DNA of 32,797 nt, taken from IMG/VR virus record IMGVR_UViG_3300021397_000006, positions 1-32,797 of that record; one strand, given 5' to 3'. The DNA comes from a virus. The notes beneath the pieces are model-generated. The model was not told the DNA's origin. It did no database searches and saw nothing but the letters and a program-made list of their open reading frames with translations. Below are positions 10,556 to 29,759 of this stretch, in pieces (the first letter of the stretch is position 1; each line of letters begins with the position of its first letter). Both the position numbers and the translations under genes were made by a program.

Positions 10556-10825
10556 ATGGCTAAACAACTAGACAAATCTAAAATGAAGTGTAACAAACCT
10601 AAGCGTACCTCAGGTCATGCTACTAAGTCTCATGTAGTTAAGGCATGTGCTAACGGCAAAGAGAAGATCATTAGGTTTGGTCAACAAGGTGTATCAGGTG
10701 CAGGTAAAAGCCCTAAGTCAGCTAAGGACAAAGCCAGGAAGAAGTCCTTCAAAGCTAGACACGCTAAGAATATCAAGAAGGGTAAGATGTCTGCTGCGTA
10801 CTGGGCTGACAAGGTGAAGTGGTAA
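10556..10825 (+). CDS. Small basic phage protein with conserved SAAYWADKVKW tail
   Basis: This 89-aa, Lys/Arg-rich protein has the pattern MKCNKPKRTSGHATKSHVVKAC, IIRFGQQG, then KSFKARHAKNI and a KMSAAYWADKVKW ending. I recognise it as a recurrent hypothetical protein of marine tailed phages, without known function. Two cysteines spaced across the N-terminal half (C12 and C31) could bind metal. It begins the run of five tiny basic genes that ends at the terminator and is translationally linked to the next gene by TAATG. Nucleic-acid binding is plausible from charge alone. Confidence 0.75.
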   Translation: MAKQLDKSKMKCNKPKRTSGHATKSHVVKACANGKEKIIRFGQQGVSGAGKSPKSAKDKARKKSFKARHAKNIKKGKMSAAYWADKVKW

Positions 10826-12304: not shown

Positions 12305-12381
12305 TGGCGTCCCCGGTAGGATTCGAACCTACGACCCACAGCTTAGAAGGCTGTTGCTCTATCCTGCTGAGCTACGGAGAC
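12305..12381 (-). tRNA. tRNA-Arg(UCU), with encoded CCA
   Basis: On the minus strand a complete cloverleaf folds: acceptor GTCTCCG/CGGGGAC (one G-T pair), D-arm GCTC/GAGC, anticodon arm ACAGC-CTTCTAA-GCTGT giving anticodon TCT, T-arm GTAGG-TTCGAAT-CCTAC, then discriminator G and an encoded CCA. It reads AGA, a codon used heavily by the rightward virion genes in this window. Its first base is the last base of the upstream gene's TAG stop, so the tRNA must be processed from the leftward mRNA. Confidence 0.95.
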
Positions 12382-19898: not shown

Positions 19899-21551
19899 TT
19901 AAGCCTCAAAGGATGAAGGGTGTGTCTCAGACAGAGTAAAGCTATCTGGATCGAATAGCAACTGACCTCCGAAACCTGTAGTGCCTGCCGGTCGGTTCTT
20001 AATGACAGTCAGGGTGGTTGTGTTGCGCTCAGTGTCTGACTCAGCGAACTTATCCCTAGACAGTTTGACAACCACTGAGGCTCTCTTACCGATCATACGA
20101 CAGTCTCTAATCTGACCTTCGTCATTCTCATGGGCAATCGTTATGATCCCTACGTTCAGTTCGGTAGCCAGCCTAGCTAACTTAGTTGATAACTCAGACA
20201 GGAACTGTTCAAGCGTACCATCACCGTGCTTGGAATAACCTAAGTCTTGGATAGGTTCAAAGAAGATGTACTTACATTCACAGGCTGTAGCAAAGAACCT
20301 AATCCTGTCCAGCAGCTCCATAGGATCATCGTCTACACCCATAGTGAACTGGTATAGCATCCCATTCTTAGTTAGTGACGTAATGCTGCCCTCTACCTCC
20401 TTGTCCATAGCGTGAGCCTCAACTAAGTCCTTCCTAGTTAGGTTCAAACCTAAGTCGTAGGATACTAAGCCTAATAGGGACCGACGCTTGCTCTCTTCGT
20501 TGTGCCAGATAGCGATAGGTACATCTGCGTGGTTCAGTAGGATGTTGTACTCTAAGAACCGCATGAACTCCGTCTTACCTATGCCCTCAGGTGCCTGAAA
20601 GATAGTGAAGTGACCCTGCATTAGCCCCAAGATGGTCTGATCCAAAGCCTCAATGCCTGTAGGTAGGTACTTACTGTCTTCCCCTTCGTTGTAGATACTA
20701 AGGAACTGGTCGGTGGTATTAAATACGTTCTCAGGTGTGTACTTGTTGGCGTTCCACCAAGCGTTCCTGTAGTCGTACTCAGCTCCGTCCTGTAGGAACT
20801 CATTGGCGTCCTTGTACTTGTCATGTGACACACGATAGATACGGTTAGGGAATAAGGCACACAGCTTAGCTGCTACTGCATCACTCTTACCGTCACTGTC
20901 GAAAGACACATAGATTTTATCGAAGGATGCCAACCAATCCTTACACTTCTCAAACAACCTACGACTTGGGTTAGCTGAAGGGAGTGACACAACTGGGTAC
21001 TTAGAACCTAGCATCTGGAAGGCTGACATAGCATCAACCTCACCTTCAGTTATCGTGCAAGCCTTAGCTGATCCTGCGTTGAACTTATCCATCCCGAATA
21101 GTTCGTCTGACTTGAAACCTCTGTCAGCCTTAAAGAATTTAGGTAGTGTCCTAATCTTCCTACCTCCACCGGGGTAAGGATAGAACTGTTCGACACTGAC
21201 ACCCTCAGAATTAACTGAAGTCTCCACCTCGTATGTCTTCATGGTAGCCTCAGTGATACCTCTGTCAGCCTTGTAAGCCTTAGTGGTATTGATGCTGAAG
21301 ACGTTTGCTTGTTGTTGCATGTAGTCAGTCCCTTCAGTTGGCTGTTGTTTACGAAAGATGCTTTGAGTATCCTTCGTTTTGTATTTCGTAGGGTATTCTA
21401 CAAGGAAGTGATCCTCATATTCAACCCCTTTCTTTGGGTAACCATTACTACAGGAGTGACAATTCCCTATCCCCTTTTCTGTGTGAAAGCTGAAGGCATC
21501 ACTTGACCCACAACCTGGGTAAGGACATGGCTTGTGAATTAGCTGAGGCAT
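19899..21551 (-). CDS. DNA primase-helicase (T7 gp4-like)
   Basis: This is a 550-aa bifunctional protein. An N-terminal zinc ribbon has C9, C14, C31 and C34. The TOPRIM primase core has TEGEVDAM (about 168-175) and VSFDSDGKSD (about 220). The RecA-like helicase domain starts near residue 290, with Walker A APEGIGKT (about 319-326), a Walker-B-like YIFFEPIQD, an IITIAHEND switch and a conserved Arg in NRPAG. Length and order match T7 gp4. It unwinds DNA and lays down primers for the downstream polymerase. Its ATG follows a copy of the 20-nt dyad motif, whose AAGGAAGG end also serves as ribosome site. Confidence 0.96.
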   Translation of the reverse strand: MPQLIHKPCPYPGCGSSDAFSFHTEKGIGNCHSCSNGYPKKGVEYEDHFLVEYPTKYKTKDTQSIFRKQQPTEGTDYMQQQANVFSINTTKAYKADRGITEATMKTYEVETSVNSEGVSVEQFYPYPGGGRKIRTLPKFFKADRGFKSDELFGMDKFNAGSAKACTITEGEVDAMSAFQMLGSKYPVVSLPSANPSRRLFEKCKDWLASFDKIYVSFDSDGKSDAVAAKLCALFPNRIYRVSHDKYKDANEFLQDGAEYDYRNAWWNANKYTPENVFNTTDQFLSIYNEGEDSKYLPTGIEALDQTILGLMQGHFTIFQAPEGIGKTEFMRFLEYNILLNHADVPIAIWHNEESKRRSLLGLVSYDLGLNLTRKDLVEAHAMDKEVEGSITSLTKNGMLYQFTMGVDDDPMELLDRIRFFATACECKYIFFEPIQDLGYSKHGDGTLEQFLSELSTKLARLATELNVGIITIAHENDEGQIRDCRMIGKRASVVVKLSRDKFAESDTERNTTTLTVIKNRPAGTTGFGGQLLFDPDSFTLSETHPSSFEA

Positions 21552-21563
21552 TGTAAGTTCCTT

Positions 21564-21583
21564 CCTTAGGATATCCTTAGTAT
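21564..21583 (-). promoter_or_regulatory. 20-nt dyad motif, copy 1 (primase-helicase leader)
   Basis: Read leftward it is ATACTAAGGATATCCTAAGG, ending 12 bases before the primase-helicase ATG. Its core AGGATATCCT is a perfect 10-bp palindrome. It is identical over all 20 bases to the copy before terS. Confidence 0.85.
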
Positions 21584-21615
21584 ATAACTATCATATGTTA
21601 TATAGTAGTTATATT

Positions 21616-21635
21616 ACTTAGGATATCCTTAGTAT
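21616..21635 (-). promoter_or_regulatory. 20-nt dyad motif, copy 2
   Basis: Read leftward it is ATACTAAGGATATCCTAAGT, 19 of 20 bases identical to copy 1, and 52 bases further upstream in the same orientation. Confidence 0.85.
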
Positions 21636-21692
21636 GGTTAAGAGAGTGGGGTCTTGGTCAACCTCTGTCAAGGGTTAGAAGTGAAATAAATC

Positions 21693-21706
21693 TGTGGATA
21701 ACCACA
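21693..21706. promoter_or_regulatory. DnaA-box-like palindrome
   Basis: TGTGGATAACCACA contains a perfect TTATCCACA on the minus strand (21693-21701), the consensus bacterial DnaA box. The whole 14 bases are also an inverted repeat (TGTGG/CCACA). It lies beside an AT-rich stretch; only one clear box is present. Confidence 0.5.
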
Positions 21707-21767
21707 ATGATTAAATCAAATCTAATTAGACAGGCTAGGAATACAACTGTAGATAGTAGATCAGTAT

Positions 21768-21962
21768 TCATAGTTGACCTGCATCTACCCATTGGTTCCT
21801 AGTTGCATGGAGGTAGGTAATCTTAGCTGCGCTTGCCAGCATAGCCCACTCCCAATACTTAAGTTCGAACTCCTTCTTGTTCTGCATGAGGTGGTCTCTG
21901 TAGTTAAACCAATTCTGAAGGTCTGCCTCTACCTCCTTGAGACTGTTATATTCTTTGGGCAT
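21768..21962 (-). CDS. Hypothetical small helical protein
   Basis: This 64-aa protein starts MPKEYNSLKEVEADLQNWFN and looks like two amphipathic helices with aromatic residues (WFNYRDHL and YWEWAMLASAAK). Its ATG shares a base with the dUTPase stop (TAATG), so it is coupled to dut. No family is recognised. Confidence 0.65.
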   Translation of the reverse strand: MPKEYNSLKEVEADLQNWFNYRDHLMQNKKEFELKYWEWAMLASAAKITYLHATRNQWVDAGQL

Positions 21963-22417
21963 TAGGATGTACCTCCTGTAGAGCCTAAGCCTCCTGTGCC
22001 TCTATCTGTGTCATCAGTATCGAAGGTATCTACAATGTTAAGGCTAGTCCTCTCTACTTTGTGGAATACCATCTGCGCTATCCTGTCCCCAGGTTTGACA
22101 CTAAAAGGTGAGCGACTTAAGTTATGCATGATAACCTTAATCTCTCCCCTGTAGTCAGCATCTAAGATACCTGGGGCGTTGCTTACGAAGACACCTTTCT
22201 TAGCGGCTAAGCCTGACCTGCTACAGACCATAGCACACATGTCTTCTGGCATCCTCATTTGGAAACCACAGCCTACTACTCCTGTCTCGTTAGGGAACAG
22301 CACAAGAGACTGGCTAGCATACAGGTCATAGCCAGCAGCCTGAGATGATCCTTTGGTTGGCACCTTAGAATGCTTATGCATTAGGTGTACTTGAATACCT
22401 TGGTATAGATCAGTCAT
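21962..22417 (-). CDS. dut: dUTP diphosphatase (trimeric dUTPase)
   Basis: This 151-aa protein hydrolyses dUTP to dUMP and pyrophosphate, which keeps uracil out of DNA and feeds ThyX. All five motifs are present: AGYDLYAS (I), SRSGLA (II), GILDADYRGEI (III, with the catalytic Asp), GDRIAQMV (IV) and the flexible C-terminal RGTGGLGSTG (V). The length is typical of homotrimeric enzymes. It overlaps its upstream neighbour by eight bases and its downstream neighbour by one. Confidence 0.96.
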   Translation of the reverse strand: MTDLYQGIQVHLMHKHSKVPTKGSSQAAGYDLYASQSLVLFPNETGVVGCGFQMRMPEDMCAMVCSRSGLAAKKGVFVSNAPGILDADYRGEIKVIMHNLSRSPFSVKPGDRIAQMVFHKVERTSLNIVDTFDTDDTDRGTGGLGSTGGTS

Positions 22418-22631
22418 TGGGGTTGTCCTGTAGGGGTCTGTAGATTGTGTCTTTGTTCATGGCTAAGGTTCTGTCCACCTGCTTCGTTGTTAGGAGTTGG
22501 TATGAACCTTCGATAGCCCATAGGTTCTCAGCTATCCAATTGTCCCTATGCCCCTTAGATTGGAACTTGTAGACTACATCCTTGTCTAAGCCTTTGACTA
22601 AGACAAACCTAGCTTTTCTGGGTTGGTTCAT
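22410..22631 (-). CDS. Hypothetical protein
   Basis: This 73-aa protein starts MNQPRKARFVLVKGLDKDVV. It is basic at the N-terminus with a mixed alpha/beta pattern (KFQSKGHRDNWIAENL, then VDRTLAMNKDTIYRPLQDN). No family is recognised. It overlaps dUTPase by eight bases and its upstream neighbour by four (ATGA), and so belongs to the same operon. Confidence 0.6.
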   Translation of the reverse strand: MNQPRKARFVLVKGLDKDVVYKFQSKGHRDNWIAENLWAIEGSYQLLTTKQVDRTLAMNKDTIYRPLQDNPND

Positions 22632-22831
22632 CGGTTCATCCTTCCGTTCACTCTGTTAGCTAACTTGTCTAAGGTATCCCCCGGCAGCCCTTTGGTCCAC
22701 CATGTGTACCCACCTTGCGTAGGGTAGGTGACTGCAATAGACCAAGCGTCGTCCTCCTGATCCCTCGTAATGGACATGTCTCCACCTTTCTTCTGGATTA
22801 GATATGCTAGGGTTTCTACTGATTTACCCAC
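22628..22831 (-). CDS. Hypothetical small protein
   Basis: This 67-aa protein starts MGKSVETLAYLIQKKGGDMS, with a central WSIAVTYPTQGGYTWWTKGLPG strand pair and a C-terminal helix. No family is recognised. The four-base and eight-base overlaps with its neighbours support expression from the dut-containing operon. Confidence 0.55.
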   Translation of the reverse strand: MGKSVETLAYLIQKKGGDMSITRDQEDDAWSIAVTYPTQGGYTWWTKGLPGDTLDKLANRVNGRMNR

Positions 22832-23180
22832 TGGATTTAACTCCTCTTCCTGTTGCTTGACCCTTTCGGATTAGGCCTGTGATAGTCCTGTTGACGTTAG
22901 GATAGTGTAGCATCCAATGGCACTCATTGTCGATGACATCAAAGCTGAATTGCCTGCCTGCCTTGTAGTTATTTTCGTAGAACCCTTCAGCTACCTTATC
23001 TAGTGGCTTGTCTGCATCGTCTAGGAAGTTATGGCTGTGGCTCAGCTTTCCTAGGTAGTTGTGTTTCTTTTTACCTTTCTTCTTGTCGGGTCTGTTTATA
23101 AAGACTGCCCAAGACCGTTGCTTAGGTCTGATCCAGTCACTACCTTGCAGGTGAGACACAATGTTCTGGAAGTTTGGCAT
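22824..23180 (-). CDS. Hypothetical protein
   Basis: This 118-aa protein starts MPNFQNIVSHLQGSDWIRPK. It has a Lys-rich loop (DKKKGKKKHNYLGKL), then HSHNFLDDADKP, and a basic C-terminus (RKGQATGRGVKSSG). The pattern suggests a small nucleic-acid-associated protein, but no domain is recognised. It overlaps the upstream gene's stop by one base (TAATG). Confidence 0.58.
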   Translation of the reverse strand: MPNFQNIVSHLQGSDWIRPKQRSWAVFINRPDKKKGKKKHNYLGKLSHSHNFLDDADKPLDKVAEGFYENNYKAGRQFSFDVIDNECHWMLHYPNVNRTITGLIRKGQATGRGVKSSG

Positions 23181-23365
23181 TAGTCCGCAGCCTCCCGTAG
23201 GTTTATCCTTAGATTGTCAGCATCGTCTGCGAACAGGGTCAGAGTGAAGGTTAGCCCTTCGGTTGTCTTTATCTGTATGTCCCTCCACGTTGCACACTTC
23301 TCTGAACTTACGGATTTAAGTTTGATGGATGACACACCGTGGATGCTCATGCTGCTTATGCTCAT
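23180..23365 (-). CDS. Hypothetical small beta-rich protein
   Basis: This 61-aa protein starts MSISSMSIHGVSSIKLKSVS; beta strands are suggested by IQIKTTEGLTFTLTLFADD. GGAG lies nine bases upstream of the ATG at 23363-23365, which favours this start over the internal ATG five codons later. Function is unknown. Confidence 0.5.
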   Translation of the reverse strand: MSISSMSIHGVSSIKLKSVSSEKCATWRDIQIKTTEGLTFTLTLFADDADNLRINLREAAD

Positions 23366-23369
23366 AGTC

Positions 23370-23534
23370 TTACACTCCTTCTTCTGGGTCTACTTCGTTC
23401 AAACCTGTGCCGTCACAGTCATAGCATTCAACTATGCGGCTCTTGATGTAACCACCATGGCTCCAGTCAGATACAGGCGTTTCTACCTCTACCTCACCTG
23501 AGCCATAGCACTCAGCACATTCACTCTGTCTCAT
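23370..23534 (-). CDS. 54-aa DnaJ-type zinc-finger protein
   Basis: This short ORF encodes two CxxCxGxG-like motifs: CAECYGSGEV (C6, C9) and CYDCDGTGL (C37, C40), separated by about 28 residues. Two such motifs together form one zinc site, as half of the DnaJ cysteine-rich domain does. There is no J domain. Phages often carry such mini-proteins of unknown role; chaperone-like or RNA-binding use is possible. It lies four bases before the next start and follows a membrane peptide gene with a 14-base overlap. Confidence 0.65.
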   Translation of the reverse strand: MRQSECAECYGSGEVEVETPVSDWSHGGYIKSRIVECYDCDGTGLNEVDPEEGV

Positions 23535-23685
23535 TACCCGCACCTTTCTCTTTCTCTTTCCTTAGTGTCTCTTCGTACCACGTTGGCAGTTGGATTAGAA
23601 GATGCGTCCATGCGGCGGCCAATGCTATAGCACCTGCGAAGAATGCTATGCATATGACCCACGACACTACGTCTATGATGTCCAT
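23521..23685 (-). CDS. 54-aa single-TM membrane peptide
   Basis: The ATG at 23683-23685 opens MDIIDVVSWVICIAFFAGAI, with one transmembrane helix (about residues 5-31) followed by a charged cytoplasmic-type tail (YEETLRKEKEKGAGNETE). A competing out-of-frame ORF here (23534-23716) has poor composition. The clear TM-plus-tail design and a start six bases after the upstream stop favour this frame. A pinholin- or accessory-type role is conceivable but not shown. Confidence 0.5.
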   Translation of the reverse strand: MDIIDVVSWVICIAFFAGAIALAAAWTHLLIQLPTWYEETLRKEKEKGAGNETE

Positions 23686-23690
23686 TGTTT

Positions 23691-24254
23691 CTATCCCCAC
23701 TGGTCAGCCATGGCATTAGCTATGCCTTGGAATGTTCTCGAACGGTCAACAGAATTGCGTGGTGTCTGATACCAGCCTTTGGTATAGCGCCTGCCGTTGG
23801 GTGTCGTGATATAGCTAATGTCCACCACCTCGGTAGGCCTCAGCTTGGGCAGGTTCTTTAGCCATAGGCATGTGCGTTTGCTGTAGTCGTGGCCGTGATG
23901 ATATGGCTGGATGGTTTGAGTGTAAGGTGGTAGGTTGGCAGCCCTTGATGGCACGGGGTTCTCTACACAGATTTTTGGTATGTCAGCGTTCAGCAGAGAC
24001 ATGAATAGGCTGGTATCTATCTTCCGACCCTCTCGCTTGTTCCAGATTGACCTAGTTCTGGCGATGTAGGTGCAAACAGGGTGTGCGATCATCATGTCCC
24101 AGCCCCTGTCCAGATGCTTTAGAACGTCATCCTGAATGTGGTGAGTGCTTGATCGCTCCGTCTGTAGCAGATCGCACGACCACGCATCGTGACCCTTGGC
24201 CCTGAATGCATCGCGGATGATGCCTGACATTTCGCATGCTATTAAAATCTTCAT
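23691..24254 (-). CDS. C5-cytosine methyltransferase-like protein
   Basis: This 187-aa protein opens with a SAM-binding-type strand-turn ([20 protein letters not shown]), continues HDAWSCDL, and has MIAHPVC61TY in the place of the catalytic PC loop and CVE98NP as motif VI. These are family marks of short phage Dcm-like proteins. HPVC replaces the commoner HPPC, and there is no target-recognition domain, so its activity and specificity are uncertain. It could methylate phage DNA against restriction or act in base modification. AGGAAAA precedes the ATG, which overlaps the upstream stop (ATGA). The gene lies in a G+C-richer segment than the replication genes. Confidence 0.75.
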
Positions 24255-24424
24255 TGGGTTTTCCTCTTGTTTCTTAGCACCAAGCGAGCGGCATACAGAC
24301 GTGCCTCTTCCTCCTCTGTGTTAAGCCATGGGTGCATCGACAAAGCCTTCACCATGTTGGCTATGGCCCACGTAGGCTGGCGCCCTACTATCTTCTCAGC
24401 TTCTGCTAGTGTCATCGGGTTCAT
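24251..24424 (-). CDS. 57-aa hypothetical phage protein
   Basis: This ORF is too short for routine calling but is tightly packed: its ATG overlaps the upstream stop by four bases and its TGA overlaps the methyltransferase-like ATG. The protein ([20 protein letters not shown] is the start, then [20 protein letters not shown]) looks like a compact helical domain recurrent in alphaproteobacterial phages, from memory. Function is unknown. Confidence 0.65.
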
Positions 24425-24636
24425 CCTTCTGCCTGCTGTGTTGGTTGTGCCTTGGGCAGATCCTCAAATGTAAGGAACCACTCCCGCCACGCCTGAGCCT
24501 TAGCCTTAGCGTTGAATGTGAACGTCCCAAGCTTTGCGTGGTCAGTCGTATCGTAGCAGGTGACAGCATATAACTTCTGGCCCTTGATCTTAGTTGCTTG
24601 GGTAGCATAGACGGTCTTATGTACTGTGTTTGACAT
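24421..24636 (-). CDS. Hypothetical protein
   Basis: This 71-aa protein starts [20 protein letters not shown], with a beta-rich half ([21 protein letters not shown]) and a helix ([18 protein letters not shown]). AAAGGA precedes the ATG, and a copy of the 24664-24720 repeat lies 27 bases further upstream. No family is recognised. Confidence 0.6.
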
Positions 24637-24663
24637 GATCTGTATCCTTTAGGGTTTAGGGTT

Positions 24664-24720
24664 AGGGTAGTCTATACAACGTCCACAGGTACGCGCCATG
24701 GGCGTTGCGAAGGCTGTCCT
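24664..24720. repeat. Intergenic repeat copy A
   Basis: About 57 bases, beginning AGGGTAGTCTATACAACGTC and ending GGGCGTTGCGAAGGCTGTCC, match copy B at 25093-25147 at both flanks but differ in a core of 8-9 bases. The conserved arms CAACGTCCA and TGGGCGTTG pair as a 9-bp stem (one G-T). It lies just upstream of the gene ending at 24421. Confidence 0.85.
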
Positions 24721-24742
24721 ATCTCACCACACGCCTAGTGCC

Positions 24743-25057
24743 TCACAGCGCCTCCCCCATGCGCCGTTTCCGCGCTTCGCGGCGTCTCTCAAAATCTTTA
24801 CTCATTTCCAGCCTTTCTCGATGCTCATCTACCATAGAATAAATCGTGTTTTCTGGCACGTTTGCCATGTCGATTACATTGTCGTCAGGGTCACACAATT
24901 CTACATCGACCCAGCGGATGCCGGTCACTGCAAATTTGGGTTCACCTGCATCAGATACAGCCGCGACTACTAAATCCAGATTGTCCGGCAGGCCGTGATT
25001 TTCGTTCCAGCGCTTGCAATATTCGATCTCAGGGCGCGTTATGGTGAAAATTTGCAT
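24743..25057 (-). CDS. Hypothetical protein flanked by direct repeats
   Basis: This 104-aa protein starts MQIFTITRPEIEYCKRWNEN. It has an alpha/beta N-terminal part (LDLVVAAVSDAGEPKFAVTGIRWVDVELCD) and a highly charged C-terminal helix (DEHRERLEMSKDFERRREAR). AAAGGGA precedes the ATG. The gene is the only one between the two copies of the intergenic repeat, and its G+C is higher than that of the replication block. No family is recognised. Confidence 0.6.
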   Translation of the reverse strand: MQIFTITRPEIEYCKRWNENHGLPDNLDLVVAAVSDAGEPKFAVTGIRWVDVELCDPDDNVIDMANVPENTIYSMVDEHRERLEMSKDFERRREARKRRMGEAL

Positions 25058-25092
25058 CTGTTTGTTCCCTTTTTGGTTTCTGTTGGGGTTCT

Positions 25093-25147
25093 AGGGTAGT
25101 CTATACAACGTCCACAGTTCGAACTATGGGCGTTGCGAAGGCTATCC
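25093..25147. repeat. Intergenic repeat copy B
   Basis: This copy matches copy A over its first 25 bases and its last about 18 bases. The variable core here is AGTTCGAACT (25116-25125), a perfect palindrome, inside the same CAACGTCCA/TGGGCGTTG stem. It lies 35 bases upstream of the gene starting at 25057. Confidence 0.85.
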
Positions 25148-25158
25148 TTGGTTTATGT

Positions 25159-25764
25159 TTAAAGGATTACGCAATCAACATGATAGGCACTGACTGCATC
25201 ACCAGTGTCCAAACGTCGATTGGCCTGGTTGCCTGCGACATATTCGCTCCACGTGTCCCACCACCATTCGGCACCTTGCGCTTGGCATAGCTCAACATAT
25301 GCAAACACCTTGGCGCGTTGCTTATCCTTTGACAGCTTGGGGGATACCTTAACGGCGCTTGGTTTCATGCCTAAGCGTTTAAGATTGTGACTGTCGATGC
25401 AAGCAGTGTTGAAACCCATGCATTGCAGAACAAAGCTAGCCTTTACCATGCCTAAATTTGGCACCTGCATAAGCAGCAAGGTAGCATCGGCGATGACTTC
25501 GGGATTGCTCGGACCCTTCTCTTTCAAGTGATGCAGCTTAAGCCATAGCCAGTCAGCATGTGTTTGGATATAGGCTAAGCCTTCTGCCTTTTTGCCCCAC
25601 AGGAAACGCGAAGATAAGCCTGTCTCTGCTATGTCCAAGCGTTGTGTCTTGACCGTGGATAGTCCCGCTTGGATTGTGCATAGGACGAATTCCACAACGT
25701 CAATTAATCCCTCGGGTGACTTGGCCGCATGATCTGATATGAGTGCTACGTCGCGTTTATACAT
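25159..25764 (-). CDS. HhH-GPD DNA glycosylase-like protein
   Basis: This is a 201-aa protein. The stretch VPNLGMVKASFVLQCMG (residues 101-117) followed by FNTACID124SHNLKRLG matches the helix-hairpin-helix plus GPD/Asp signature of base-excision glycosylases (compare LPGVG-K-TA and VDTH in endonuclease III). D124 sits at the catalytic Asp. The lysine nucleophile position reads V107, with K108 one residue later, so it may be monofunctional or not a lyase. It could remove modified bases, acting on host, phage or competitor DNA. AAAGGA precedes the ATG. The resemblance is by motif only; a fold search would settle it. Confidence 0.55.
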   Translation of the reverse strand: MYKRDVALISDHAAKSPEGLIDVVEFVLCTIQAGLSTVKTQRLDIAETGLSSRFLWGKKAEGLAYIQTHADWLWLKLHHLKEKGPSNPEVIADATLLLMQVPNLGMVKASFVLQCMGFNTACIDSHNLKRLGMKPSAVKVSPKLSKDKQRAKVFAYVELCQAQGAEWWWDTWSEYVAGNQANRRLDTGDAVSAYHVDCVIL

Positions 25765-25794
25765 TGCCTGGTTTCCTTTGTTGCGTTGTTGTGA

Positions 25795-25983
25795 TTACCA
25801 ACATTCTAGGCGGTAGGAAACGGCCCCGCTGGGTGATCCGTATTTGATTAGCAGGTTCTCGGCTTCAAGCTTAGCCTCTTCCAACGTCCGGGCCGACAAA
25901 GTTTCGCGGCAATAATCTAAGCCCGAACCTGTTAAAAATATCGCTTGGTAAGCTGCGTGCAGTGGCGCTTCGGTTTCTAACAT
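25795..25983 (-). CDS. Hypothetical small protein, first gene of the leftward block
   Basis: This is a 62-aa protein. I chose the ATG at 25981-25983 (MLETEAPLHAAYQAIFLTGS), which follows a GAGAGAGAGA purine tract. The frame continues open upstream for 64 codons, but that part crosses repeats and a promoter. The helical segment TLEEAKLEAENLLIKYG is followed by strands, and the C-terminus is YRLECW. No family is recognised. Confidence 0.55.
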   Translation of the reverse strand: MLETEAPLHAAYQAIFLTGSGLDYCRETLSARTLEEAKLEAENLLIKYGSPSGAVSYRLECW

Positions 25984-26050
25984 TCTCTCTCTCTCTTGTT
26001 TGTTTGTTGAATGAGTGGCTAGCCTACTTCGAAAACGTGCCCAGACCCCC

Positions 26051-26090
26051 ACGCAGTTTTTACATAGCAGCCATGCAGTTTTTGCATAGC
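26051..26090. repeat. Two direct repeats with internal dyad in the leftward leader
   Basis: ACGCAGTTTTTACATAGC (26051-26068) and ATGCAGTTTTTGCATAGC (26073-26090) differ at two of 18 positions and are spaced 22 bases apart, about two helical turns. The second contains ATGCA-GTTTT-TGCAT. The spacing on one DNA face suggests protein binding sites between the leftward promoter and its first gene. Confidence 0.7.
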
Positions 26091-26125
26091 TCGAGACCAG
26101 CTGGCCGTGCCTGTCTCGCATGTGT

Positions 26126-26154
26126 ATTATATAGCAAGGACAAAATGAGAACAA
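26126..26154 (-). promoter_or_regulatory. Leftward sigma70-type promoter
   Basis: Read leftward, TTGTTC (26149-26154) and a perfect TATAAT (26126-26131) are separated by 17 bases. It lies about 143 bases upstream of the first leftward gene (start 25983). The -35 matches the consensus at only three positions, so activation or extended contacts may be needed. Confidence 0.5.
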
Positions 26155-26426
26155 ATCGCAAGTCAGGGTCGCCATAGGATATCCAGCGTTAGAAAAGGCA
26201 AGGCCGCTGCAGGGCGCTTAAAACCGCTTTAAATTGCTGTGGTAATCTAGTACCGCCACAGTGCTGCAAATTTGCCACAGGTGTTGCATAAATGTCACAA
26301 GTGTTACATTGTAACAATCCGTTGGCGATTACATAGCAGGCTAATGGTTAATGCCCTAACAGTAAGTAAGACTACAGTAAGGTACGCAACAATAAGCCAT
26401 GCAACAATTAAGGGGCTAACTAATTT

Positions 26427-26545
26427 CCGTTGTGCGATGCAACATACTAGGCAGTATCCGTTGTGCAGTGCAACATACCAGGCAGTATCCGTTGTGCAGC
26501 TCAACATACCAGGTAGTATCTGTGTTGCAGTGCAGCATATTCTTG
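26427..26545 (+). repeat. 31-bp iteron array
   Basis: Three contiguous 31-base units, 26427-26457, 26458-26488 and 26489-26519, each begin CCGTTGTGC and end GTAT; a degenerate fourth starts at 26520. Each unit contains the dyad GTTG-N7-CAAC (imperfect in unit 3, GTTG...TCAAC). There are no spacers, so this is not CRISPR. Such iterons typically bind replication initiators or repressors. Confidence 0.85.
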
Positions 26546-26774
26546 GGCCTGGCCCGGGGGTACGCGGGGTAGCCTCTTATATGTACAATGCACCAAAACA
26601 TTTTCTAATAATTTTCCAGGTCATGCAAAAAGCCCTAGGAAGCTCCTGTACGTCCAAGGCTTGTTTCTAGGCTACGAACCCAGCAGATAACAAGACAAGG
26701 ACACCAAAGGAGGCTCCTAGAGCTTTACAGCAGATATTTGACATATGAAGCTACCCTAGAAAAGCGGAACCTTC

Positions 26775-26794
26775 CTAAGGATATACTTAGTACT
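26775..26794 (-). promoter_or_regulatory. Diverged leftward copy of the 20-nt dyad motif
   Basis: Read leftward it is GTACTAAGTATATCCTTAGG, 17 of 20 bases identical to the leader motif. It is followed by GAAGG, as in copy 1 before the primase-helicase gene. It is far (about 790 bases) from the first leftward gene. Confidence 0.55.
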
Positions 26795-26950
26795 ATCCTA
26801 TGTACTATAATCCTTTATATATTTCCTTTATAGATTTATCTAGTACAGTACTAAGTACTATCCTTAGTACGTCCTAAGTATAATACTAGGGTATCATACA
26901 TACCAATCTTTGTCAATATAAAAATAATAATATATTTTGCACTTTCCCTA

Positions 26951-26979
26951 TTGACACCAATATAAGAGTACTGTATAAT
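26951..26979 (+). promoter_or_regulatory. Consensus sigma70 promoter for terS and downstream genes
   Basis: TTGACA (26951-26956) and TATAAT (26974-26979) are both perfect and separated by exactly 17 bases. Start of transcription is expected near 26986, giving a 5' leader of about 75 bases that includes the 27008-27046 hairpin and the 20-nt motif. Confidence 0.85.
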
Positions 26980-27007
26980 GTCTACCAATTGATTCATTCA
27001 TATATGT

Positions 27008-27046
27008 ATATCCTTAGTCCTAGTTCATAGGACATACTAAGGATAT
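27008..27046 (+). promoter_or_regulatory. Large hairpin/cruciform in the terS leader
   Basis: ATATCCTTAGT (27008-27018) pairs perfectly with ACTAAGGATAT (27036-27046), and an inner stem CCTA/TAGG (27019-27022 / 27028-27031) encloses GTTCA. The 3' arm is part of the 20-nt motif, so protein binding to the motif and hairpin formation would compete. Confidence 0.65.
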
Positions 27047-27053
27047 CCTAAGG
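27034..27053 (+). promoter_or_regulatory. 20-nt dyad motif, rightward copy (terS leader)
   Basis: ATACTAAGGATATCCTAAGG ends eight bases before the terS ATG and is identical to the copy before the primase-helicase gene. Its last bases (AAGGAA with what follows) act as the ribosome site. Confidence 0.85.
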
Positions 27054-27061
27054 AACCCTAA

Positions 27062-27595
27062 ATGGCTTTGTTTGAAAGAGAAGCATTTATTAACTCAGTT
27101 GGTCATACAAGAATTAAATCACTATTCCTTGAGTTAAGTTATGATAACAATAAGTTCCAACTATTTACATTAAAAGATAAAGATATTGTCAACTCCGAAG
27201 GTAAGCCCCTTCTTAGTATTAAGAAATTATATTTAGATCATGTGTCAAATGACCCAACTGAGTATACCTTTGCTATGGCTGTCTTCGGTACTTGGGATAT
27301 TTGGGATACAATCAGAACTAACCCATCTCTCCGTAGATACTACAGTAAGTGGAGAGAGGAAGTTGATGTAAGGATTAAGTCAGAAGCAATCAGAAGCATA
27401 GCTGAGGAAATGAGAGAAGGTGGTAGGTCATCCTTTACAGCAGCCAAACTACTTCTAGAAAGAGGTTGGATTGAAAAGGTTAGTCCTCATGATCGTAAGT
27501 CCGAAAGACAAAAGCAAAAAGAAACTACCTTAGATCGTCAAGCTATGCAGATGCTCTCCAAAGACGCAGAACGGTTAGGTCTAAAAGTTAACTAG
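27062..27595 (+). CDS. terS: Terminase small subunit
   Basis: This 177-aa protein opens MALFEREAFINSVGHTRIKS, followed by the KKLYLDHVSNDPTEYTFAMAVFG segment and W-rich helices (WDIWDTIRTNP). Next come a coiled helix and the FTAAKLLLERGW motif, and a basic C-terminus. This is the pattern of small terminase subunits in marine podoviruses, which recognise phage DNA and deliver it to TerL for packaging. The N-terminal half is not the usual helix-turn-helix, as in several such phages. It is the first gene of the rightward block, with TerL five kilobases downstream; tail genes have been placed between them. Confidence 0.72.
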   Translation: MALFEREAFINSVGHTRIKSLFLELSYDNNKFQLFTLKDKDIVNSEGKPLLSIKKLYLDHVSNDPTEYTFAMAVFGTWDIWDTIRTNPSLRRYYSKWREEVDVRIKSEAIRSIAEEMREGGRSSFTAAKLLLERGWIEKVSPHDRKSERQKQKETTLDRQAMQMLSKDAERLGLKVN

Positions 27596-27656: not shown

Positions 27657-29759
27657 ATGGCTAAGAAACCTACCGTCTCGACTATTAGCTCAGGGTATGC
27701 TTCAAATACTCAGCTTAATGCTAACTTTGAAGCACTAAGAGATTCCTTTGATAACACTTTGTCTCTTGACGGTAGTAGCCCTAACGCTATGGGTTCTGAC
27801 TTAGACCTAAATAATAACGACCTAATCAACGCAGGTACGATAGCTACTAATGCTCTAAGTGTAGGTGGTACTTACCTAACAGCAGATTCAGCTACAGTTA
27901 CAGGCGCTTCTCTTCACTCAGATAACTTCACAGGTAATGGGTCCACTACAGCTTTTACTCTTACCTATAAACCATTCATTGAAAACAACACACAAGTCTA
28001 TATTAACGGTGTTTATCAAAACAAAGAAACTTATTCTATTTCAGAAAAAGTACTTACCTTTTCACAGGCACCTGTAGCAACTACATCCATTGAAGTTGTT
28101 GTAGCTAGGTCTTTAACCTTTAGTGCTACCGAGTCATCTAACGTAAGTCATATCCATTCAGGTACAGGCGCAGTAGGTCGTACCGCCAGCGCCAAACTTC
28201 AAGATGTCCTAACAGTAGCTGATTTCGATACTTCAAGTAACTTTGTAGTTTCAGCCTTAAATAATATAGCATTCATTGAATCAGATGTTACAGTCTCAGT
28301 AGCTGCGTCAGGTGGTAACGTAACCACTCTTCAAGCTGCCTTAACAGGTATTGCTAATTGGATGATTGCATCTGATGCCCTGGTTACAATCCAAATCGCA
28401 GCTGGTGTTTTTACCTGTAGTTCTATATCCTTTGACCACCCCTACGGAAGCAGGATTATAGTCCAAGGAGCAAGCCTATCCACAGTAACAGCTCCTAACG
28501 GTGTAAGTGTTACATCTAACGGAGCTAGAGACCACGATGTAGTTTGGACATCCACTGGTCATGGACTAACTACAAGCGACTATGTAGTCATTAAAGATAT
28601 TCCAGTAGCTGGCACCAACGAAGTCTTTGAAGGAATTTTTAAAGTTACAGCAGTTGGTAGCACAAATACTTTCACAGTTAAAAACACAGCTAAAAATACA
28701 TCTATTTCTTTTACAGGTTCAATTGGAACTGGTGTATCAATTCAAAAGTACGGTACAGTTTTGTCTTTCCCTAGCTTAGGTACTGGCAATGGTATCACAG
28801 TTTACGGCTACGGACCTGAGTGGGAGAACTTAGCCTTTGTAGGTGATGGCTCAGGTGACAGTGTAGGCATGATGCTTTGGTACGGAGCTTATACCCGTAT
28901 TGAAGCTGGGGCGTTCTACAACTGGTCAAGCCACGGTCTATACGGTATCTATGACGGAACAGTTGATGCTCAGTTTGTTGTTTGCTCTAACTGCGGTGAA
29001 CACGGAATCTATGCCTTAAACAACTCAACCTTTCAATTTGCAAGTGCGATCTCAACAGGTAATAATGGAAGCGGTGCAGTTAACGCAGGCAGTCATGTAG
29101 CTGCGTCAAGCTTTCTAACGGCTGGTAATACCTCAAGCGGTTACTTCGGAGGTGACGGAAGCACAGGTGTTGTTCAGAACATTGTTTCTGTTCAGAATGG
29201 CCTCTACGGTGTATCTTTAGAGGAAGCTAGTCACGTTGATGTAAAAGGTGCAAGTACGCTCATTAAAAATAACCTCGGTAACAGAGGTGTAAGTGTAAGT
29301 GAGAGATCATTTGCTGATATAACTGGCGCTACTATCAGTGGTCATACATACGACCTTTACGGAGAAAAACTTGGCTACATAGCCAGTAACGGTTCTGAAG
29401 GGTCAACAGAAGGTTTTGTAACAGGTGCTGGGCAAAATGGTGGCTCAAGTGATATAACCTTAACGGGTCAACTAAGTATTGACGGCAATGCAGCTATGGA
29501 CTACTTTGATGTAGCCACTAAAGCTCACGACTTAGGAAGCATTGCAGCGGGTGCCCAAGCTAGTACAACACTAACAATGACAGGCTCTACTACTACTAAC
29601 ACGGGTTTCTTTGTAAACTGTAACTCACCTGTAGCAGGTCTTATCTACACAGCTACTTGCTCAACAACTAACACAGTTACGATCACAGCTTCAAACATTA
29701 CAACTGGTGCTATCTCAGCTTTAGCTAGAACGTACACAGTTGCAGCAGTAGGAGTTTAG
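27657..29759 (+). CDS. Tail fiber/spike with beta-helix body
   Basis: This is a 700-aa protein. Residues 1 to about 75 form an N-terminal adaptor (TVSTISSGYASNTQLNANFE, then LDLNNNDLINAG) like those that anchor fibers in marine phages. Residues about 90-155 resemble the T7 gp17 N-terminal domain unit (VYINGVYQNKETYSISEKVL). The remainder is Gly/Ser/Thr/Asn-rich and strand-repetitive (for example GIYALNNSTFQFASA and GIYDGTVDAQFVVCSN), typical of right-handed beta-helix spikes that bind or cleave surface polysaccharide. No catalytic site is evident. The gap before it contains a duplicated ACTCAGTAGGAA. Confidence 0.82.
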   Translation: MAKKPTVSTISSGYASNTQLNANFEALRDSFDNTLSLDGSSPNAMGSDLDLNNNDLINAGTIATNALSVGGTYLTADSATVTGASLHSDNFTGNGSTTAFTLTYKPFIENNTQVYINGVYQNKETYSISEKVLTFSQAPVATTSIEVVVARSLTFSATESSNVSHIHSGTGAVGRTASAKLQDVLTVADFDTSSNFVVSALNNIAFIESDVTVSVAASGGNVTTLQAALTGIANWMIASDALVTIQIAAGVFTCSSISFDHPYGSRIIVQGASLSTVTAPNGVSVTSNGARDHDVVWTSTGHGLTTSDYVVIKDIPVAGTNEVFEGIFKVTAVGSTNTFTVKNTAKNTSISFTGSIGTGVSIQKYGTVLSFPSLGTGNGITVYGYGPEWENLAFVGDGSGDSVGMMLWYGAYTRIEAGAFYNWSSHGLYGIYDGTVDAQFVVCSNCGEHGIYALNNSTFQFASAISTGNNGSGAVNAGSHVAASSFLTAGNTSSGYFGGDGSTGVVQNIVSVQNGLYGVSLEEASHVDVKGASTLIKNNLGNRGVSVSERSFADITGATISGHTYDLYGEKLGYIASNGSEGSTEGFVTGAGQNGGSSDITLTGQLSIDGNAAMDYFDVATKAHDLGSIAAGAQASTTLTMTGSTTTNTGFFVNCNSPVAGLIYTATCSTTNTVTITASNITTGAISALARTYTVAAVGV

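Follow-up and report, generated by a model that had tools for sequence, protein, structure and literature searches.

The window, as the whole stretch of DNA analysed is called here, is an IMG/VR record of 32.8 kb. Matches at about 50-80% amino acid identity tie its primase, DNA polymerase, terminase and late genes to Zobellviridae, Cobavirinae, among them Lentibacter phage ICBM2 and Roseobacter phages CRP-4 and CRP-5. The core genes in common and the two-arm gene order place the window phage in this group. Its layout is that of the cobaviruses (Bischoff et al. 2019, PMC6775973), the same phage group, with two arms and direct terminal repeats. SIO1-related cobaviruses have no RNA polymerase, and their genome ends are short direct terminal repeats (PMC6775973). 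Judged against ICBM2, the record appears to lack about 8 kb of the late arm. Two genes and the predicted genome end belong to the locus:

19899-21551, minus strand: primase-helicase gene (phrog_239)
27062-27595, plus strand: first late gene, encoding a conserved cobavirus protein; terS candidate by synteny only
26422-26589, no strand: predicted direct terminal repeat (concatemer junction), from similarity to the ICBM2 DTR ends; boundaries inferred

An earlier note on this DNA had named the 27062 gene terS, and this label was not confirmed: PHROG gives 'unknown function', no Pfam match exceeded the cutoff and no significant PDB fold match was found. Comparison with the known TerS family and fold gave sub-threshold TerS matches only, and the viral fold matches were to unnamed proteins. 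The one observation in support of the label is the position next to terL in the relative T5S1. Three 31-bp tandem repeats (TCCGTTGTGC..GCAACATACYAGGCAGTA) are present at 26426-26539, within the predicted terminal repeat.

A search of the window for the 20-mer ATACTAAGGATATCCTAAGG found two exact copies, at 21564-21583 (minus) and 27034-27053 (plus), as the earlier note had reported. A copy with one mismatch (19/20) lies at 21616-21635 (minus), 52 bases start to start from the 21564 copy, in agreement with the description of a second site upstream in the helicase leader. The 17/20 copy, with three mismatches, is also present, one base away from the 26775-26794 originally given, at 26774-26793 (minus). 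The distances to the ATG, 12 bases for the primase-helicase gene and 8 bases for the 27062 gene, are correct, and the core AGGATATCCT, described as a perfect palindrome, is one and occurs exactly three times. In shuffled windows, the mean number of ATACTAAGGATATCCTAAGG copies with up to three mismatches was 0.00. The motif is real and far above chance.

The sites lie just downstream of three predicted promoters. All three are consensus matches to sigma-70 with predicted starts, and the extent of the leaders follows from these predictions:

21643-21671, minus strand: P_M, predicted sigma-70 promoter of the primase-helicase operon; TTGACA (21671-21666), N17, weak -10 CACTCT (21648-21643)
26888-26916, minus strand: P_R, predicted divergent promoter; TTGACA-N17-TACCCT, reading in the direction of the predicted terminus and the early arm
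26951-26979, plus strand: P_L, predicted late promoter; TTGACA-N17-TATAAT, 12/12 consensus

P_R, back to back with P_L, was overlooked in the earlier note and carries the largest array of sites. The divergent P_L/P_R pair was found in nearly all of the ~65 relatives surveyed. Since the predicted terminus lies at ~26422-26589, P_R would be located at the right-hand end of the linear genome, reading toward the concatemer junction, a placement that resembles T7 phiOR; only if the genome were concatemeric or circular could its transcription enter the early arm. The stretch from the left end to the first early gene yielded no good sigma-70 consensus.

A sub-motif search showed that these leaders contain multiples of the pentamer CTWAG, at 21565/21576, 21617/21628, 26775/26786, 26851/26863/26874 and 27037/27048. 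The triple at 26851 and a single box at 27013 come in addition to the copies of the earlier note. The boxes are arranged as follows:

21616-21635, minus strand: box pair 1, two CTAAG 11 bp apart, at about +2 to +21 of P_M; kept in L001-L015
21564-21583, minus strand: box pair 2, 52 bp from pair 1, ending 12 nt before the primase ATG
26774-26793, minus strand: box pair (26775, 26786), the 17/20 match to the 20-mer
26851-26878, no strand: triple CTWAG array (26851, 26863, 26874), spacing 12 and 11, just downstream of P_R
27013-27017, no strand: single CTWAG box in the P_L leader, from the sub-motif search
27034-27053, plus strand: box pair (27037, 27048) in the P_L leader, at about +49 to +68, ending 8 nt before the ATG

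Pairs of [AC]CTWAG[GT] at 11-12 bp number 6 in 32.8 kb, where 0.02 are expected, and all 6 are in these leaders; the random scatter across the genome that the earlier note named as counting against a control site was not seen. On the sequence evidence, the conserved unit is the short palindromic box CTWAG repeated at 11-12 bp, and not the AGGATATCCT palindrome to which the earlier note gave this role. In the relatives L010-L014 the AGGATATCCT core is swapped for AGGATAACCT or AGGTTAACCT while the CTAAGG repeats are retained, and AGGATATCCT is therefore mainly a by-product of two boxes one helical turn apart. The first boxes lie at a near-constant distance from the promoter -10 elements. The pattern TTGACA-N15-19-YAYYCT occurs only twice in the window and only twice in CRP-4, and boxes follow it in all four cases. 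P_R promoters with a TACCCT -10 (six non-redundant) have a mean of 4.5 leader boxes, and those with TATAAT (28) have 1.5.

Close metagenomic relatives, with primases 80-100% identical, keep the box pairs in the primase leader. Late-leader box pairs were found in five contigs, among them L083/L013 with both leaders. In the leader alignment, which is imperfect for L006, box columns have 93% mean identity and other columns 81%; the primase leaders of L001-L015 contain TTGACA in this alignment, with the L006 row misaligned. The primase leaders of L016-L022 have TACTTAAGTA and CTWAG boxes instead. Farther primase homologs have no boxes and keep the TTGACA promoter, several with a strong -10 and another dyad seen by eye; in other relatives the back-to-back promoters are still present, with a consensus -10 and only a small number of boxes. 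In distant relatives, k-mers common to both leaders included no box-like match, and the one long match (L024) is the -35 region. A collection-wide search for the exact pattern returned mostly unrelated contigs, probably by chance, plus a few further relatives.

A second box type was found in other cobaviruses. In a motif-blind scan of the regions upstream of the late gene, CTTWAAG was the top enriched palindrome in three relatives (L036, L038 and L079) and among the top palindromes in L024 and CRP-4. Its clusters are confined mainly to intergenic control regions. The cultured cobavirus CRP-4, whose primase has 52% amino acid identity to that of the window, has TTGACA-N17-TACCCT followed within ~8 nt by CTTWAAG-type boxes at two promoters, P_R (39777) and the early-arm promoter before gp06 (1648), and gp06 has a further box directly before its start. 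The box sequence evidently differs between lineages on a shared promoter layout. The series CTWAG, CTTAAG and CTTWAAG on this constant layout may be a case of natural site evolution, perhaps together with the protein that recognises the site.

The proposal of the earlier note, a control site shared by the replication and packaging operons, is thus retained in a changed form. The sites are non-random, both leaders carry them in close relatives, and the arrangement recurs in CRP-4. The corrections are that there is a third promoter, P_R, that the sites lie at or downstream of the start, and that the box type is lineage-specific. The absence of the motif from both leaders of relatives, which had been named as evidence against the proposal, was not found in close relatives, but distant ones have few boxes or none. 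The cassette is a real, conserved cis-control element which is undescribed in the literature searched, while its general kind, the phage operator, is known.

We consider it somewhat more probable than not that the boxes are operator clusters for one phage DNA-binding regulator acting near the start of transcription. The boxes, their phasing, the promoter positions, the conservation and the parallel CTTWAAG cassette of CRP-4 can all be read directly in the DNA. Operators are expected to be sequence-specific, repeated dyad sites at promoters, and to be kept at the same promoters in relatives with a co-varying box type elsewhere; both properties were found. In an operator cluster, two or three palindromic CTWAG boxes would follow each other at intervals of one helical turn; such clusters would stand directly after the host-sigma-70 starts of P_M and P_R, and within the P_L leader. 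A dimeric phage-encoded protein would most likely bind adjacent boxes cooperatively on one face of the DNA. It might then repress or roadblock initiation at +1 to +25, where lac O1 is situated, and a second cluster at ~+55 to +75 would strengthen repression. One protein could in this way time both the replication and the late operons in a phage group without its own RNA polymerase. Protein binding, repression rather than activation, and timing are what we infer from this arrangement.

A dyad site immediately after the start, with more than one site per promoter, is also the design of lac-type operators, which are placed at +1 to +21 and have a further, auxiliary operator downstream. In contrast to these, the phage boxes are in tandem with an 11-12 bp period and are common to three phage promoters. 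The phi29 p4/p6 switch acts at the divergent early A2b/A2c and late A3 promoters (PMC10899789), and is similar in that early and late promoters come under common regulatory proteins in an early-to-late switch of a small podophage (PMC10899789). However, the late promoter of the window phage is already a perfect consensus, the boxes are not between the start sites, and no p4 or p6 homolog was identified.

Several proteins were considered as the cognate regulator. When the small early proteins were scanned with Pfam and PHROG, only sub-threshold or unrelated matches came up, and a survey of adjacent genes across relatives gave no convincing candidate. The 73-aa protein encoded at 22410-22631 has a C-terminus that looks HTH-like by eye, but its AlphaFold pLDDT is 53 and it was not found in the box-bearing L014. 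The small, very basic product of 10556-10825 is conserved in phages without arrays, and no counterpart of the ICBM2 HTH_39 protein was seen among those window proteins that were scanned. None of the scans, the survey or the one structure prediction turned up a DNA-binding protein whose occurrence follows that of the boxes.

The boxes may instead act in the transcripts of the 5' leaders as an RNA element, in the form of hairpins, an mRNA-stabilising or RNase III-processed stem, translational control at the Shine-Dalgarno sequence, or put/nut-like antitermination. Weighing the control site as RNA against the control site as DNA, we lean to the operator and regard the RNA element as possible but doubtful. 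In its favour, boxes are found almost only in transcribed leaders, and in those of several operons, as for put/nut sites: their density is at the background of 1.8 per kb between the two start sites, and rises to 7.8 per kb in the P_R leader and 8.1 per kb in the P_L leader. The last box merges into the Shine-Dalgarno sequence in both the primase and the 27062-gene leaders. The RNA of the primase leader (MFE -30.6, z -6.15) and that of the P_R leader (MFE -31, z -4.6) fold strongly, and strong leader folds are also present in L006, L008, L010 and CRP-4 P_R. However, palindromic boxes pair with each other automatically, and the strong fold of the primase leader is mostly due to this self-pairing. 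Pairing of the spacers only is significant (p about 0.01) in the window and in CRP-4 P_M; the remaining seven of the nine leaders show no such significance. Where two CTAAG boxes form a stem, an A.A mismatch stays unpaired at the centre of each box, as would be expected if every box were maintained on its own account. Although it shares the exact 20-mer with the primase leader, the P_L leader has only a weak fold (z -1 to -2), the L011 and L014 leaders fold poorly, and Rfam has no match at the leaders.

The closest RNA parallel is HK022 put and lambda nut, where the same element stands in several operon leaders just after the promoter with hairpin potential, and where identical leaders on separate operons are a hallmark. 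The boxes are similar in recurring in several leaders after the promoter and in their hairpin potential. They differ in being self-palindromic direct repeats, in that pairing outside the boxes is inconsistently conserved, and in the lack of an Rfam match. A new class of put-like processive antitermination or processing signal in the leader RNA at the P_R, P_M and P_L transcript starts seems improbable to us; if true, such a signal would let host RNA polymerase, or the phage mRNA, get through long operons and across the concatemer junction. Nothing usable on put or tandem-operator precedents came from the literature searches.

Other explanations are weaker still. The P_R arrays neighbour the terS candidate, and ~200-450 bp separate them from the predicted terminus, as would suit packaging or concatemer-junction sites bound by the terminase small subunit near the genome end, but an equally strong set is found in the primase leader 5 kb away, CRP-4 has a set before gp06, and the near-constant spacing of the first boxes from the -10 elements also argues against this; we regard such a role as quite unlikely. 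An iteron-type replication origin, suggested by the AT-rich spacer of 32-36 bp that separates the helically phased repeats before the primase gene, is slightly less likely again: the same boxes stand at the beginning of two other transcripts, no initiator gene was seen, and the GC skew changes sign only at operon boundaries. A conserved 20-mer ahead of several operons also recalls phage-type (T7-like) RNA polymerase promoters, a reading which is disfavoured and very improbable given the consensus sigma-70 promoters just upstream of the boxes, the SIO1-related cobaviruses without an RNA polymerase gene (PMC6775973), and the lack of an RNA polymerase family match among the window proteins scanned, in a record that lacks ~8 kb of the late arm.

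Cobaviruses, which lack an RNA polymerase of their own, infect marine roseobacters and have a global distribution. No description of cobavirus promoters, operators or transcriptional control was found in the literature searched; the words 'promoter' and 'operon' are absent from the main text of PMC6775973, and the cassette is not described there. A map of three promoters with common, lineage-specific boxes offers a testable account of how replication and late genes may be timed.

Some further features were found in the window and in relatives. A ~57-bp repeat with a dyad (CAACGYCCAYAG/CTGTGGACGTTG) has two copies, at 24663-24720 and 25092-25148, which occupy two gaps in the minus-strand early operon. 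There is a tRNA-Arg gene (anticodon TCT) at 12305-12381 (minus); the cultured ICBM phages were reported without tRNAs (PMC6775973). In the fibre gene (27657-29759, plus), the match to most cobavirus tail fibres is limited to the first 45-75 residues, and the remainder appears unrelated. A contig of another phage lineage (L098, 1-300) has divergent consensus promoters with a CCTTAGGGAATCCTTAGG box pair beyond the leftward promoter. In L090 (2672, minus) and L091 (2570, minus), promoter-like TTGACA sites run antisense to the early operon, each -10 being followed immediately by the dyad AGGGCTTGTCCCTGACAAGGG. The same two contigs have a perfect TTGACA-N17-TATAAT (28619, minus, and 28106, minus, respectively) just downstream of the neighbour of the major capsid gene, in the gap before or after the capsid region.
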